Notes under the pieces: generated by a model | Told to the model about the DNA's origin: nothing | The model's input: the letters and a program-made list of their open reading frames with translations, nothing else | The model's database searches: none | From: a virus | Direction: 5' to 3' (one strand) | Virus record (IMG/VR): IMGVR_UViG_3300027996_000113 | Coordinates: 1 to 32,143 of that record | Length of the DNA: 32,143 nt | Position numbers and translations under genes: made by a program | In this document: positions 9,404 to 15,229 of the stretch, piece after piece | Layout: every line of letters begins with the position of its first letter | Numbering within the stretch: position 1 is the stretch's first letter

Positions 9404-9646
9404 ATGCAGGAATATAACAAAGAACTGGAAAAGAGACAGTTCAAATACAGACTAGAAAAAAAGGATAAAGAGATAAAAAGACTAAAGGAGTTGATGATGT
9501 ATAGAGCTTTAAAAATATCTAATCTTAATGGTCAATTAAACAAGAAAAGAGATAAAATAGAATACTATAAAAGCAGAATAAAAGATCTGGAATCTAACTA
9601 CCGGGATCTTATTAATTATAACAGATTTAAAACATGCAAAAAATGA
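9404..9646 (+). CDS. Small coiled-coil protein, 80 aa
   Basis: This is an 80-residue, very Lys/Arg/Glu-rich protein that is probably one continuous helix (KYRLEKKDKEIKRLKELMMYR and later KRDKIEYYKSRIKDLESNYR) with heptad-like hydrophobic spacing. It is basic overall. No family is recognised. It lies 11 bases after the CoiA-like gene and overlaps the helicase gene start by 13 bases, so it could assist one of these enzymes, but this is inference from position. Confidence 0.55.
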   Translation: MQEYNKELEKRQFKYRLEKKDKEIKRLKELMMYRALKISNLNGQLNKKRDKIEYYKSRIKDLESNYRDLINYNRFKTCKK

Positions 9647-11007
9647 AGTACCAGGAATTTTTAAAAACAAAAAAGCATAAGTTAGGGAGCTTCGGTTTTG
9701 AACCTAATTTTATACCAGATATTGCTTTTGACTTTCAAAGAGAGATAATAACAAGAGCAGTAAAAAAGGGTAGGATAGCAATATTTGCGGATACTGGATT
9801 AGGTAAGACATTAATACAGTTAGCAATAGCTCAAAATATTGTTAATTATACCAATAAAAAAGTATTAATATTAACTCCTTTAGCTGTAGCGTTTCAGTTT
9901 ATAAAAGAAGCTGAGAAAATAGGGATAGATGATATTGAATATTCAAGAGATGGCAGCCATACAAAAAAGATAGTAATTTGCAATTATGAAAGATTACATC
10001 TATTAGATTGTAATGATTTTGAGGGTATGGTATTAGATGAATCTAGTATACTAAAAAACTTTAAAGGCAAAATAAAAAGCCAGGTTAATACTTTTATTAG
10101 GAAGATAAAATATAGATACCTAAGTACTGCTACTCCTAGTCCTAATGATTTTATAGAATTAGGTACAAGCTCTGAGGCTTTAGGGTATATGGGTTATATG
10201 GATATGTTAGGAAAGTTTTTTAAAAACAATCAAAACTCTTCAGACTCAAGAAGTAACAATATAGGAGAAAAATTTTACCTAAAGCCTCATGCAGAAGAGG
10301 ACTTTTTTACATGGGTTAATCAATGGGCAATTATGATTAAAAAACCATCTGATTTAGGATACTCAGATGATAGATATAATCTACCTAATTTGACGATCAA
10401 TAAACATGAGGTTAAAAATCAATCATTGATAGCTCATGATGGTCAGATATTAATGTTTACTCCTATAGCTAAAACTATGACAGAGGTTAGGCATGAACAA
10501 AAACAAACTACTAACCAAAGATGTGAAAAAGCTGTAAAATTAGCTGATAACAAAGTATCTGTTTATTGGGTTAATACTAATTTAGAAAGTAATATAATAA
10601 ATAAATTAGATAGTGATTCTGTAGAGATATTAGGGAGTATGTCTATAGATAGAAAAGAGGATATACTTATAAATTTTGCTCAGGGGAATATAGACAGAAT
10701 AATAACTAAAGCTAAAATGACTGGAATGGGTTTAAATTGGCAGCATTGTAATCATTCTGTATTTTTTCCTACATGGAGTTATGAGCAGTATTATCAAGCT
10801 ATTAGAAGGTTTTGGAGATTTGGACAGGAAAGAGATGTTACTATTGATTTAGTTATATCTGATGGTCAAAAAAGAGTAATAGATGCACTAGATCAAAAAA
10901 CTAAAAAAGCAATAGAACTATATCAAAAACTATCAGACTCTGTTAATGGAGTTTATGAAAATAAAGTAAGAGAATTTAATCAAAAAATTATTCAACCAAA
11001 ATTTTAA
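9634..11007 (+). CDS. SNF2/DEAD-like superfamily 2 helicase
   Basis: This is a 457-residue superfamily 2 ATPase of the phage SNF2-like group. Motif I is DTGLGKT (53-59), motif II is LDESS (134-138, in place of DEAH), motif III STATPSPND (164-172), and the C-terminal half has GMGLNW (364-369) and motif VI QAIRRFWRFGQ (388-398). It would translocate on or remodel DNA using ATP. The next gene, 5 bases away, is a DNA methyltransferase, a pairing I know from many phages. All Leu codons I counted here avoid CTG (0 of about 35), unlike the replication gene at 13427, suggesting a separate origin. The Met at 9643 is another possible start. Confidence 0.85.
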   Translation: MQKMKYQEFLKTKKHKLGSFGFEPNFIPDIAFDFQREIITRAVKKGRIAIFADTGLGKTLIQLAIAQNIVNYTNKKVLILTPLAVAFQFIKEAEKIGIDDIEYSRDGSHTKKIVICNYERLHLLDCNDFEGMVLDESSILKNFKGKIKSQVNTFIRKIKYRYLSTATPSPNDFIELGTSSEALGYMGYMDMLGKFFKNNQNSSDSRSNNIGEKFYLKPHAEEDFFTWVNQWAIMIKKPSDLGYSDDRYNLPNLTINKHEVKNQSLIAHDGQILMFTPIAKTMTEVRHEQKQTTNQRCEKAVKLADNKVSVYWVNTNLESNIINKLDSDSVEILGSMSIDRKEDILINFAQGNIDRIITKAKMTGMGLNWQHCNHSVFFPTWSYEQYYQAIRRFWRFGQERDVTIDLVISDGQKRVIDALDQKTKKAIELYQKLSDSVNGVYENKVREFNQKIIQPKF

Positions 11008-11012
11008 TTAAA

Positions 11013-12020
11013 ATGACAAAACAACAATTAATTACAGATGAATATGCAATCTATAATAGTGATTGCATGGAGATATTACCAACCTTAAAAGATGAGAGCA
11101 TAGACCTATCTGTTTACTCTCCTCCTTTTGCAGGATTATATAATTATTCAAGCTCTCATAGAGACTTTAGTAATTGTGACAATGAAGAGGAATTTATGAA
11201 TCAATATGAATTCCTAATAAAGGAGATGTCAAGAGTTACTAAAAAAGGCAGGATAAATTGTGTACATGTTACTGAGGTAGTGCAAAATAATGGATCATCA
11301 TGGGACTTCCCAAATGAGGTAATAAGAGTACATGAGAAAAATGGATTTTTATATAAAGGTAGGATCACAATATGGAAAGAACCTTTAAAAGTTAGAATGA
11401 GGACTATGGTAAAAAGCTTAATGCATAAACTAATAGTAGAAGATGCTACTCAGTGCTTTCCTGCTCAACCTGATTATCTATTGCTATTTAAGAAAAAAGG
11501 AGATATAGAAACTCCAGTTACTCATAAGTTTGGTATGGAAGATTATTTTGGAGATACTCCTATATTGCCAAATATATTAAGAGCTTGGAATAATGCAAAT
11601 AATACCAATTTAGATTCTGAAGAACTTTGGGATCATTTGAATACAGTAAATGAAGATGATAAAATAACAAAGCTAAATCATTATGTATGGCAGCGTTATG
11701 CTTCTAGTGTATGGGATGATATACGTATAGATAATGTTCTACCTTTTAGAGACTCTAGAGAGGATGACGATGAGAAACATGTACATCCTCTGCAATTAGA
11801 TGTTATTGATAGATGTATATCATTATGGTCTAATCCCGGAGAAGTAGTATTAACTCCTTTTATGGGAGTAGGATCAGAGGTTTTTAGTCCTGTATCATTG
11901 GGTAGAAAAGCTATAGGAATAGAGCTAAAAGATAGTTATTACAAACAAGCTATTATCAATTTAGACCATGCTAAAAGTAGATTTAAAAATAAAAAAAATC
12001 AATATGAATTAAATTTCTGA
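11013..12020 (+). CDS. DNA methyltransferase, beta class, orphan
   Basis: This is a 335-residue DNA amino-methyltransferase. The catalytic motif IV is SPPF (36-39) in YSPPFAGLYNYSSSHRDFSN, and the AdoMet-binding motif I lies at the C-terminus (TPFMGVGSEVF about 281-291, then GRKAIGIELK). This order, catalytic before AdoMet motif, marks the beta class, which makes N4-methylcytosine or N6-methyladenine. SPPF/SPPY is more usual in N4-cytosine enzymes. No restriction endonuclease gene adjoins it, so protection of phage DNA from host restriction is the likely use, with the helicase gene just upstream. Like the helicase it nearly lacks CTG Leu codons (one seen). Confidence 0.87.
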   Translation: MTKQQLITDEYAIYNSDCMEILPTLKDESIDLSVYSPPFAGLYNYSSSHRDFSNCDNEEEFMNQYEFLIKEMSRVTKKGRINCVHVTEVVQNNGSSWDFPNEVIRVHEKNGFLYKGRITIWKEPLKVRMRTMVKSLMHKLIVEDATQCFPAQPDYLLLFKKKGDIETPVTHKFGMEDYFGDTPILPNILRAWNNANNTNLDSEELWDHLNTVNEDDKITKLNHYVWQRYASSVWDDIRIDNVLPFRDSREDDDEKHVHPLQLDVIDRCISLWSNPGEVVLTPFMGVGSEVFSPVSLGRKAIGIELKDSYYKQAIINLDHAKSRFKNKKNQYELNF

Positions 12021-12100
12021 ATAAAAAAAGCCTGATGCTCTAGCAAACATCAGGCTACAGAATACAAATAGTAACAGATTCCTAAATCTATTAAAACCTT
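12021..12100 (-). ncRNA. Candidate minus-strand small RNA (about 75 nt)
   Basis: Between a TATCTTTG -7 box (plus 12106-12113) and a strong terminator (12022-12056) lie about 45 bases with no usable reading frame. The predicted transcript would start near 12100 and contain a small AGATT/AATCT hairpin before the terminator stem. There is no protein-coding gene on this strand for the terminator to serve, which is the main argument for a small RNA. Its function is unknown, and no known family is recognised. Confidence 0.4.
12022..12056 (-). terminator. Strong rho-independent terminator, minus strand
   Basis: On the minus strand AGCCTGATG pairs perfectly over 9 bases with CATCAGGCT (plus 12056-12048 and 12037-12029, 10-base loop) and is followed by seven T residues (plus 12029-12023). 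On the plus strand no T-tract follows, so it acts for leftward transcription. It begins two bases after the methyltransferase stop codon. Confidence 0.75.
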
Positions 12101-12105
12101 TAGTT

Positions 12106-12136
12106 CAAAGATAAAATAAATACCATTATTTATCAG
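12106..12136 (-). promoter_or_regulatory. Candidate leftward promoter for small RNA
   Basis: On the minus strand TATCTTTG (plus 12113-12106) is a perfect -7 box, identical to those at 4915 and 5686. At a spacing of 20 the -33 position reads CTG instead of TTG, a two of three match. It would drive a short transcript ending at the terminator at 12022. Confidence 0.45.
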
Positions 12137-12162
12137 TATTTCATACTTTTTTTTTACATTTG
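12132..12162 (+). promoter_or_regulatory. Candidate rightward promoter for leader RNA/replication genes
   Basis: TACATTTG at 12155-12162 fits the TAnnTTTG -7 box. The -33 position 20 bases upstream has no TTG (it reads ATC), so the match is partial. It shares its spacer region with the leftward candidate promoter, giving two divergent start sites. Transcripts would enter the structured leader before the replication operon. Confidence 0.4.
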
Positions 12163-12167
12163 TTCTC

Positions 12168-12314
12168 AGTAAATTTATTGGTACAGTTTACTACAACAAC
12201 TCTGGATACATACTAAAACATATAGATTCAATAGGTCTGTATAAGTAGCTAATAAGGGAGTACATTCAGAGGCTCCATACCAAACTTATAGCTACTTATG
12301 CAGGCTTTTTTTTT
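12168..12314 (+). ncRNA. Candidate structured leader RNA or small RNA
   Basis: This segment lacks a usable reading frame. It ends with a 17-bp stem (12235-12251 with 12289-12305), formed by an 11-bp perfect inverted repeat ATAAGTAGCTA/TAGCTACTTAT extended by six pairs including two G-U, followed by nine T residues (12306-12314). Inside the 37-base apical region GGAG (12257-12260) can pair with CTCC (12273-12276). The large size distinguishes it from simple terminators. It could be an attenuator controlling the replication genes that start 16 bases later, or a free-standing RNA. Confidence 0.5.
12235..12314 (+). terminator. Large terminator/attenuator hairpin before replication genes
   Basis: A 17-bp stem with a 37-base loop ends in a run of nine T residues at 12306-12314. 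The arrangement satisfies the stem-plus-U-tract rule for intrinsic termination on the plus strand. As the next ATG is only 16 bases away and no promoter fits between, read-through or antitermination would be needed to express the replication operon. Confidence 0.6.
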
Positions 12315-12329
12315 GCTAATTTTTAGAAG

Positions 12330-13430
12330 ATGATAGGACATATTTCTACAAGCAGGACAATAATGGAGCTGCCATTTTATACAGATGATAAAGCCTTTAA
12401 GCTGTTTTATCATTGCCTTATAAAAGCTAATTTTAAACCTAGATACTGGAAAGGAGATCTAATAAAAAGAGGGCAGTTCATAACATCCATATCCAATTTA
12501 GCGGATGAATTAGGCTGGTCATTGCAAAGCATAAGAACGTATGTTAGTAAGCTCGAAAAATACAAGGAACTAACAAAGGAGTCAACAATGCAATACACTA
12601 CCATAACTGTCTGTAACTATGAGGTTTATGCATCTTGCAATAATGAGACTAACGTACCTACTAACATACTGTTAACAAACGAGCAACAGACGAGTAACAG
12701 ACGAGTAACAACAAGAGAAGAAAGAAAGAAAGAAATAAATAATACTAAAAATGATTTTTTTGATTATTCAAAATTACTGCCTCAGGACATCAATGATGCT
12801 TTTGTTAGGCTATACGGAAAAGAAGAGGATCAGGTAGAAGAAATTATCCAACAGTTCAAAACCTTTAGCTGTGGAATATCTCTAGATTCTACCTTTGCCC
12901 TGATGCAGATAGCAAAATTTAAAACCATGAACTTTGAAAAGTATAAATACAAAATGCATGATGATAGAAACATAGAAGCATCACTGTTTAAGTTCCTTAC
13001 CAAAGGATACCAGTATTCCAAGAATAAAAAAACAACATCTCTAAGGAATCAGAACGATTATGAAAAGTATCTTCTGGATTGGGTAATATCATACCAGGGG
13101 AAAGAGGATGGTACTTTTAAGTTTAACTATTGGAAAAAAAATAAGGAATTAGATACATGGGTAAAAGGATATAAAAAAAATAAAGAAAATTTATTATCAA
13201 TACACAAAGAGCATTTTAAAGACTATCCTAACCTTACACTATTTACGTTGTACGATGTGCTGTACCTAAATGTCTGGAATAAATGCTCTAAAACTCCCGG
13301 AAGTATTCCTAACACTATCAAGGAATTTAAAGGATGGCTAAAGAGAAATAGCAAAAAGAATAACTACAAAATGAACAAAACACATATGAGAACAAATATT
13401 TATGACCATCTAGATAAGCAAAGACTATGA
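12330..13430 (+). CDS. Replication initiator-like protein with winged-helix N-terminus
   Basis: This is a 366-residue protein. The first 100 residues look like the winged-helix domain found in phage replication proteins (KRGQFITSISNLADELGWSLQSIRTYVSKLEK, about 46-77), where a Gln/Ser-rich helix contacts DNA. A hydrophilic linker (about 105-145, TNEQQTSNRRVTTREERKKE) is encoded by tandem DNA repeats, as in the lambda O gene where the origin lies. The C-terminal part is helical and basic. It overlaps the prim-pol/helicase gene as ATGA. Role as origin-binding protein and helicase loader is inferred from domain type and position, and the exact family is not recognised. Confidence 0.65.
   Translation: MIGHISTSRTIMELPFYTDDKAFKLFYHCLIKANFKPRYWKGDLIKRGQFITSISNLADELGWSLQSIRTYVSKLEKYKELTKESTMQYTTITVCNYEVYASCNNETNVPTNILLTNEQQTSNRRVTTREERKKEINNTKNDFFDYSKLLPQDINDAFVRLYGKEEDQVEEIIQQFKTFSCGISLDSTFALMQIAKFKTMNFEKYKYKMHDDRNIEASLFKFLTKGYQYSKNKKTTSLRNQNDYEKYLLDWVISYQGKEDGTFKFNYWKKNKELDTWVKGYKKNKENLLSIHKEHFKDYPNLTLFTLYDVLYLNVWNKCSKTPGSIPNTIKEFKGWLKRNSKKNNYKMNKTHMRTNIYDHLDKQRL
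12649..12716 (+). repeat. Six tandem 11-12 bp repeats (iterons)
   Basis: Units read CTAACGTACCTA, CTAACATACTGT, TAACAAACGAG, CAACAGACGAG, TAACAGACGAG and TAACAACAAGA without gaps. The period of 11 is not a multiple of three, so each unit is read in a different frame of the gene and the repeat must matter as DNA rather than as protein. The period is close to one helical turn, as expected for initiator-binding iterons. Confidence 0.7.
12649..12775 (+). other. Candidate replication origin
   Basis: The six iterons at 12649-12716 are followed by purine-rich GAAA repeats (12717-12735) and a very AT-rich stretch to about 12775, inside the initiator-like gene. Iterons beside an AT-rich unwinding region within the initiator gene is the plan of the lambda origin in gene O. 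Replication activity itself is inferred. Confidence 0.55.
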
Positions 13431-15229
13431 AAGAAACAGCAATACAGCTCCATAAAGCAGGATTCCGAATTATTCCAACTAATAACCCTAAGCTGCCGGA
13501 TGGTAAAAAGCCTCTGTGTAAGTGGAAAAAATACCAGTTTGAACAATCAGAAAAAGAAGTTATAACCCTATTTAGCAATCCAAACATAGGAGGGATAGCA
13601 CTGATAACCGGATCAGGGATAGAAGTGATAGATGTAGATCTTAAATATTCCTTAGATCCTAACTTCTTTGAGAAGTTTACAGATGAGCTGATGGATAACC
13701 TGGGCCATGAGTGCTACAATAATCTGATATTCACTAAAACCATATCAGGAGGATACCACATAATCTACAAAACCTCTATCTCAGAAGGAAACCAGAAGCT
13801 GGCATCAAGGCTAACATTGGATACTGAAAAAAAGAATCAGCATGATAAGACCAGAGTCCTGCTGGAGACAAGAGCAGAAGGTGGATATATTCTTATCCCT
13901 CCTGCTCCGGGTTATACCTACCATTCACAAAAAACCATAGAAGACATTAAAAGCATATCAGACTGGGAACGTAACACGATCATAGATGTATGTAGGTTTT
14001 TTGATGATACCAATGAGATCTATACCCAGACAAGTCATACTCCTGTAGAGATAGTAGGAAGTCATAAAACAACTATAGAGGCATTCAATGAAGCTCATAC
14101 TCCTAAAGAGTTTATAGAGATGGCCGGATGGCAGTTTAAGTATACCAGAGGAAACAATTATCACTATGTAAGGCCAGGTAAGAACCTAAAGGAGGGGACC
14201 GGAGCATGCTACAATGAAGAAAAAAGACTTTTGTATATCTTTACATCCTCCTCAGAGTTTGATCCTGGAAAAGCATACAATGCATTCCAAACTTATGCCT
14301 ATCTGGAGCATAATGGAGACTATAAAAAAGCTGCTAAAGTCCTCTATAACCTCAATTATGGAGACAGATTAAGCAAAAACAGAGATACATACCTGGATAA
14401 ACTTACTGCCCTGACATCTACCAACCAGGCACAAAAGGAAAAAGCATCCAATGAGGACAAAATGCAGCAGATATTTAATACTAGATTCTCTATTAAGAAT
14501 GTTCCTGACAAGATAGAGCATATCCTGACAGTGAAAAACTTTGATACTGAAGATATTATCCCATTTGGAGCATTCGGAGATTGGATAACCATCGTAGGAG
14601 CAGCAAAGAGTAGAAAATCCGCTCTATCCAATTCCATAGCAGCATCATTATTGTCTGATGGTATGCAGTCTGTTCTAAACTTTTCAGGAATGATCAAGGG
14701 CAGGAATATGATAGTCATAGATACAGAGCAAAACGCTCCTGACTACTACACATCACAGAAACAGATATACAAACAAGCAGCAGTAGAAACAGGAATAGAT
14801 CCTGAAAACTTCTACTCTTTTTGCCTGACAGATTGCAGAATATCAGAAAGACTGGAGTTTGTAGAGTATGTAATGAACAAAGTAGGAGATGTAGGAGTAT
14901 TAGTGCTTGATGGAATAGTGGACATCTGTGAAGATTACAACGATCAGAGGCTCAGCAGAAAACTGATAGACCATCTGAAAGTACTTACTGCCAGGCATAA
15001 TACGCTATTCATTCCAGTGCTGCATAATGCCAGGTCTACAGGATCTGCCAGAGGACATCTTGGAACAGAACTGATAAACAAATCTAAAGCAGTGATCAAG
15101 GTAGCTAAGGAAAAAGATGCTAACTACTCTGTGATCTCATTTGAATATATCAGAGGATCTCATGAACCTCCACAGTTTAAATTTGAGCATGATCAGGATG
15201 GTCAGCTTGTTATCATAAATGAATTATAA
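13427..15229 (+). CDS. Prim-pol primase fused to RepA-like helicase
   Basis: This is a 600-residue fusion. Residues 1-190 form a primase-polymerase domain with the metal-binding DVD (69-71) in GIEVIDVDLK, SGGYHIIY (107-114) and ETRAEGGYILIPPAPGY (147-163). A linker region to about 375 contains a helical primase C-terminal part. Residues 380-580 form a RecA-like ATPase with Walker A GAAKSRKS (391-398), DTEQNAPDYY (432-441), Walker B VLVLDG (491-496) and VLHNARSTGSARG (531-543). It would prime and unwind phage DNA. The Walker A has Arg where Gly is usual. It starts inside the initiator stop (ATGA). Confidence 0.85.
   Translation: MKETAIQLHKAGFRIIPTNNPKLPDGKKPLCKWKKYQFEQSEKEVITLFSNPNIGGIALITGSGIEVIDVDLKYSLDPNFFEKFTDELMDNLGHECYNNLIFTKTISGGYHIIYKTSISEGNQKLASRLTLDTEKKNQHDKTRVLLETRAEGGYILIPPAPGYTYHSQKTIEDIKSISDWERNTIIDVCRFFDDTNEIYTQTSHTPVEIVGSHKTTIEAFNEAHTPKEFIEMAGWQFKYTRGNNYHYVRPGKNLKEGTGACYNEEKRLLYIFTSSSEFDPGKAYNAFQTYAYLEHNGDYKKAAKVLYNLNYGDRLSKNRDTYLDKLTALTSTNQAQKEKASNEDKMQQIFNTRFSIKNVPDKIEHILTVKNFDTEDIIPFGAFGDWITIVGAAKSRKSALSNSIAASLLSDGMQSVLNFSGMIKGRNMIVIDTEQNAPDYYTSQKQIYKQAAVETGIDPENFYSFCLTDCRISERLEFVEYVMNKVGDVGVLVLDGIVDICEDYNDQRLSRKLIDHLKVLTARHNTLFIPVLHNARSTGSARGHLGTELINKSKAVIKVAKEKDANYSVISFEYIRGSHEPPQFKFEHDQDGQLVIINEL

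Follow-up and report, generated by a model that had tools for sequence, protein, structure and literature searches.

A putative transcription attenuator with two mutually exclusive RNA folds ahead of a phage replication operon

Introduction

In attenuating riboswitches, the 5' leader of a transcript can form either an antiterminator or a terminator, and the two structures are mutually exclusive. The same holds for the leaders of the RAT (BglG/LicT) family, in which the antiterminator overlaps the base of the 5' arm of the terminator. In the CI RNA immunity of satellite phage P4, a leader RNA lies ahead of a primase/helicase operon, complementary segments occur within one transcript, and transcription ends prematurely; P4 has separate seqA, seqB, and seqC segments and a processed RNA. 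A fourth system is IsrK of prophage Gifsy-1, in which one promoter gives rise both to a short RNA that ends at a terminator and, by read-through, to a phage mRNA (PMC4825925).

Here, we describe a leader in an IMG/VR virus record of 32,143 bases. This whole stretch of DNA is referred to as the window, and its nearest named relatives by DNA, via its methyltransferase gene, are mostly Flavobacterium phages. As in the RAT leaders, the predicted antiterminator takes in the base of the 5' arm and so excludes the terminator; unlike in those leaders, a second helix also takes up the apical loop. No RAT match at gathering score was obtained with Rfam in the window, and the permissive search lists no such antiterminator family. 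The leader shares with attenuating riboswitches the mutually exclusive pair of structures, but it contains no known aptamer (Rfam), and two sequences define no ligand-binding core. It resembles the P4 system in its position and in a predicted complementarity between the terminator loop and an upstream leader segment (element b), a likeness of setting; P4 itself has its three named segments and a processed RNA. The double product of IsrK, a short RNA plus a read-through mRNA, is what we propose for this leader as well, whereas IsrK pairing activates translation and concerns another phage and other genes (PMC4825925). The element appears to be a new RNA family with a mechanism of a known kind, as no tested family includes it (no Rfam match).

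Promoter and genomic setting

The features of the leader and of the operon behind it are as follows. L005 is a diverged relative of the window (IMG/VR 3300027861_000270) whose primase is 73% identical to that of the window.

12155–12162, plus strand: flavobacterial sigma-A type -7 box TACATTTG, a match to TAnnTTTG; predicted start 12167/12168
12168–12192, plus strand: 5' hairpin HP1 from the predicted +1 (fold); its loop holds UUGGUA (12178–12183, element a)
12200–12207, plus strand: leader element b CUCUGGAU, complementary to the terminator apical loop AUUCAGAG (8 pairs, one G-U)
12220–12228, plus strand: leader element c AUAUAGAUU, antiterminator strand against the base of the terminator 5' arm (truncated-leader MFE, both homologs)
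12233–12250, plus strand: terminator 5' arm (fold, covariation); 12234–12242 (GGUCUGUAU, element c') doubles as the antiterminator partner
12252–12276, plus strand: upper stem (AUAAG), inner hairpin GGAGU/GCUCC, and apical loop (fold); AUUCAGAG at 12264–12271 is element b'
12277–12284, plus strand: internal loop of 8 nt (AUACCAAA) on the 3' side of the stem, conserved and identical in L005
12285–12307, plus strand: terminator 3' arm (fold, covariation)
12306–12314, plus strand: T run of the intrinsic terminator, nine T's, read from the sequence
12330–13430, plus strand: DnaD-like helicase-loader gene, first in the putatively controlled operon (phrog_2514, E 6e-24)
13427–15229, plus strand: Prim-Pol primase/helicase gene, second in the operon (PF09250, E 9.7e-10; phrog_19930, E 4e-51)

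Behind the Prim-Pol gene come a short frame and then a DUF3127 protein with a match to a single-strand-binding family of phages.

In Flavobacterium promoters that have been mapped, TAnnTTTG lies at -12 to -5 (PMC9723704). The start predicted from the box at 12155–12162 coincides with the beginning of the interval at 12168; the -33 region of this promoter is weak. L005 has TATATTTG at the matching place (2718–2725), with a predicted +1 at 2730. In both phages the predicted +1 is, within one base, the first base of the 5' hairpin, and the hairpin of L005 also has UGGUA in its loop. The window contains 69 copies of the motif TAnnTTTG, compared with 38.6 ± 6.7 in shuffled sequences. Other intergenic copies ahead of genes (2041 and 4915 on the minus strand; 4985, 5686, and 16053 on the plus strand) stand 27–41 bases from a start codon and mark likely operon starts. 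The box at 12155–12162 stands some 168 bases ahead of its gene, and the structured RNA lies in between.

Fifteen bases separate the end of the T run from the loader ATG at 12330. An earlier note on this DNA had given 16 bases and no visible promoter; the distance is one base shorter, and there is indeed no room for a promoter. In three lineages the T run is separated from the ATG by 15–19 nt, a gap too short for a separate promoter of the downstream gene. As a consequence, the loader, the primase, and the genes up to ~16040 would rely on read-through, barring intragenic promoters. The hairpin therefore lies between a predicted promoter and the first gene, with no space for a second promoter.

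The terminator hairpin and its conservation

The arms at 12235–12251 and 12289–12305 (GTCTGTATAAGTAGCTA / TAGCTACTTATGCAGGC) pair over 17 bp, two G-U pairs among them, and 11 bp of the repeat are perfect. The 37 bases between the arms contain a small inner stem, GGAGT/GCTCC, and the nine T's follow directly at 12306–12314, so that the arm coordinates, the apical region with a second stem, and the T run are all as the earlier note had read them from the letters. In the predicted fold, the stem reaches 12233–12307 and continues for 5 more pairs past a one-base bulge. The hairpin (12233–12316) has an energy of -33.1 kcal/mol compared with -17.1 ± 3.1 for dinucleotide shuffles (z -5.2; 0/200 shuffles as stable), and the longer fold 12167–12312 has a z of -5.3 against shuffles of the same type. 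A stable hairpin with a T run directly after it, conserved with compensatory changes as set out below, has the form of an intrinsic terminator.

Conservation can be judged from two independent full-length sequences in the searched collections, the window and L005. Contigs L002/L004 and L003 are identical to the window across the interval, so that L002 and L003 contribute no independent sequence. In L005, the element is found at 2815–2891, 19 bases ahead of the same gene; its hairpin alone has a z of -8.9, and its full leader plus hairpin folds with a z of -7.6. The L005 stem has its one-base bulge where the window has it and shares the 8-nt internal loop AUACCAAA. A third relative, L082 (primase 73%), retains the 3' end of the element: its contig starts within the 3' arm (agaccTTTTTTT), 16 bases ahead of the gene. 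By gene order, the other end of this contig maps just upstream of the element, which suggests an assembly break within the hairpin. For the phage contig IMGVR_UViG_3300006079_000001 (37,450 bases; L245 at its start, L097 at its end), both ends map to the element by gene order, and its assembly seems to be broken within the hairpin.

When the window and L005 are aligned, 96.4% of cells are paired over the 28 pairs counted, and 2 pairs fail in one sequence; if the partner strand is slid by 1–3 columns, pairing falls to 31–46%. The earlier note had made its idea depend on compensatory changes in homologous phages. Four pairs of the stem have changed on both sides, and six have changed on one side only, each of the latter being an exchange of A-U or G-C with G-U. 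A simple shuffle control of this covariation gave 36/500, a control that two sequences cannot make strong. The base of the 5' arm, GGUCUGUA, is invariant between the two phages, and the double changes are higher in the stem.

The N-terminal ~64 residues of the loader (window 12330–12520) cannot be aligned with those of L005 or L082, in contrast to the conserved hairpin alongside, and the remainder of the protein is ~30% identical. A domain swap directly 3' of the conserved RNA is possible.

An alternative fold of the leader

Folded without the 3' arm, the leader adopts the same antiterminator-like topology in both phages: element b pairs with the apical loop, and element c (AUUUGUAUAGAU in L005) pairs with the base of the 5' arm. 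In these truncated leaders, the base of the 5' arm is paired to the leader with a probability of 0.80–1.0. When the arm is held fixed and the leader shuffled, 6/1000 shuffles for the window and 0/1000 for L005 fold equally well. These alternative structures came to light upon inspection.

Taken on its own, the pairing of b with the loop is matched by 12/3000 shuffled leaders for the window and by 27/3000 for L005 (UUAAUCGGU : ACCGAUUAG); the b and loop segments have little sequence common to both phages, and 8–9 pairs are retained in each. Helix a, in which bases 12278–12283 (a') of AUACCAAA pair with the loop of HP1, is present in both phages and is not significant alone (258/3000 and 327/3000 shuffles as good for the window and L005, respectively), nor is helix c alone in the window (491/3000). 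Helices a, b, and c nest within one another in order, and shuffled leaders equal their summed strength in 4/3000 cases for the window and 1/3000 for L005. Tiles elsewhere in the window match the summed score of the leader at two places.

The antiterminator is the first structure to form in stepwise folding. Its inner c helix, in the window, stays in place while the middle part of the terminator stem is built and is lost only when the final pairs, next to the T run, are made. At full length, the terminator is far more stable than the antiterminator (-38.5 vs -20.4 kcal/mol); therefore, read-through would require kinetics or some factor. In the computed folds of both homologs, an alternative structure ties up part of the terminator, and the two states exclude each other. 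The invariance of GGUCUGUA, with double changes higher up, would follow from a dual use of the 5' arm base. These models suggest that the hairpin is one half of a two-state RNA, a point absent from the earlier note.

Proposed mechanism and alternative explanations

On balance, we favour the explanation that the interval is a transcription attenuator leading the replication operon, which also yields an RNA of ~146 nt upon termination. In this mechanism, RNA polymerase would start near 12168 and the 5' hairpin would be made. Before the 3' arm exists, c (12220–12228) would pair with 12234–12242 and b (12200–12207) with 12264–12271, forming the antiterminator. Once 12285–12307 is transcribed, the more stable terminator could displace the antiterminator from the free middle of the stem. 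Polymerase would then halt in the T run and release the ~146-nt RNA, which would carry a hairpin at either end. If the antiterminator persisted, the replication genes would be transcribed, the operon being the DnaD-like loader, the Prim-Pol primase/helicase, and the DUF3127 single-strand-binding-like protein. Candidate signals for the switch are kinetics alone, a phage or host protein, and the RNA itself in trans. Computation shows both structures, their exclusion of each other, their retention in a diverged phage, and the lack of room for another promoter, and from there we infer the start site, the actual termination, and the control of the operon.

The earlier note had offered an attenuator or antitermination target on the one hand and a small RNA on the other. 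The former gains support from the covariation of the stem, the conserved and exclusive antiterminator, and the absence of room for a downstream promoter. The two are not exclusive, as the terminated product would itself be the ~146-nt RNA with a hairpin at either end. As a diverged relative retains both folds despite its different letters, the modelled switch probably does turn phage replication on and off. To our knowledge, little is known about gene regulation in phages of Bacteroidota; if the attenuator works as proposed, such a phage would control its replication through an RNA switch carried in its leader. The two states and the compensating changes are defined base by base.

It is unlikely, though worth weighing, that the interval is a standalone phage small RNA, in which case the hairpin would end its own short gene, the operon would be expressed by constant leakage, and the long-range pairing would be a pseudoknot acting elsewhere. 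The RNA would have a -7 box of its own, hairpins at both ends, and full folds with z of -5.3 and -7.6, and the complementarity between leader and loop fits the terminator state too. However, in three lineages the gap between terminator and replication gene is too small for a promoter, so that the operon depends on transcription through the terminator, and helix c engages the 5' arm of the terminator, for which a pseudoknot has no need.

More doubtful is an attenuator that regulates itself in trans, the apical loop of the terminated RNA (AUUCAGAG) pairing with element b of the next leader, blocking its antiterminator and thereby raising termination. The P4 immunity RNA pairs with its own leader in a comparable manner. 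Two segments able to pair within one molecule could also do so between two, their complementarity is kept despite sequence change, and within the window the sense-orientation complement of the loop occurs only in this leader; complementarity, however, cannot tell cis from trans. It is just as speculative that the bistable leader serves as its own sensor, in which terminated copies would build up with phage genomes, and their loops would pair with new leaders, turn off antitermination, and thus cap expression of the replication genes without any protein regulator.

We consider it very improbable that the hairpin is only the terminator of the upstream methyltransferase operon. It does lie downstream of the methyltransferase gene and on the same strand, but it ends ~290 nt past the stop codon, and this explanation leaves the -7 box, the 5' hairpin, and the antiterminator unaccounted for. 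Moreover, the upstream gene differs in L002, yet all sequence from 12023 onward is identical to the window, so that the element stays with the replication genes and is not tied to the methyltransferase. This suggests that the element belongs to the replication module. An equally slim chance attaches to an origin hairpin or recombination site acting as DNA, which would suit the adjoining replication genes and the L082 contig broken within the hairpin but not the one-sided changes to G-U, which pairs in RNA and not in DNA, the T run on one side only, or a cumulative GC skew without a turn here.

Searches for homologs and rejected candidates

Rfam gave no match at gathering score in the window and none up to E 5 in L005, and permissive thresholds yielded nothing acceptable. 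A PyrR match on the minus strand (29 bits against a cut-off of 54, E 0.03), an AgvB match (E 0.41), and matches to two miRNA-precursor models (E 0.1 and 4.5) were judged to be chance. When viral contigs were scanned for the pattern of the conserved core, the window clade and L005 alone were recovered, among many chance matches judged by context. A pattern scan of genome contigs gave at least 119 matches, and among the matches listed none of those inspected had the flanking stem and T run. Covariance-model searches covered 399 genomes of one Bacteroidota family and 395 of the phylum. Their sole match (L249, 41 bits) is a long perfect inverted repeat of 55% GC without a T run or the conserved loop, and it was rejected. 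Primase homologs in the genomes are partial or distant. No RNA homolog was found in named phages and plasmids, and the RNA model detected no further homolog in phages, plasmids, viral contigs, and about 800 genomes.

Two other kinds of element were considered and found no support. A leader peptide is not conserved: L005 has an ATG frame, MDKWYYPIYC, and in the leader of the window no ATG precedes the stem. The L005 frame (2735–2767) lies inside the 5' hairpin and is probably there by chance. A 6S-like promoter mimic was suggested by TAAGTTTG on the minus strand of the window hairpin, which is not kept in L005.

Upstream boundary and neighbouring RNA candidates

Compared with window 9634–12020, the upstream helicase and methyltransferase genes are absent or replaced in L002 and L248. 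The junction of this replacement, at 12022/12023, falls at the edge of a minus-strand terminator and marks a module boundary. That terminator belongs to a divergent RNA candidate on the minus strand (window 12022–12113), which has a -7 box TATCTTTG (12113–12106), a length of ~77 nt, two hairpins, and a strong terminator (12056–12029) at its end, and folds with a z of -4.6. The candidate is absent beside the L005 element, and its pairing with the leader RNA is no better than that of shuffles (230/500). A weak PyrR-model match, below the cut-off, falls at the same place. Upstream of the same region in L097, the intergenic stretch 1205–1292 is promoter-like and terminator-like and is a further small RNA candidate.
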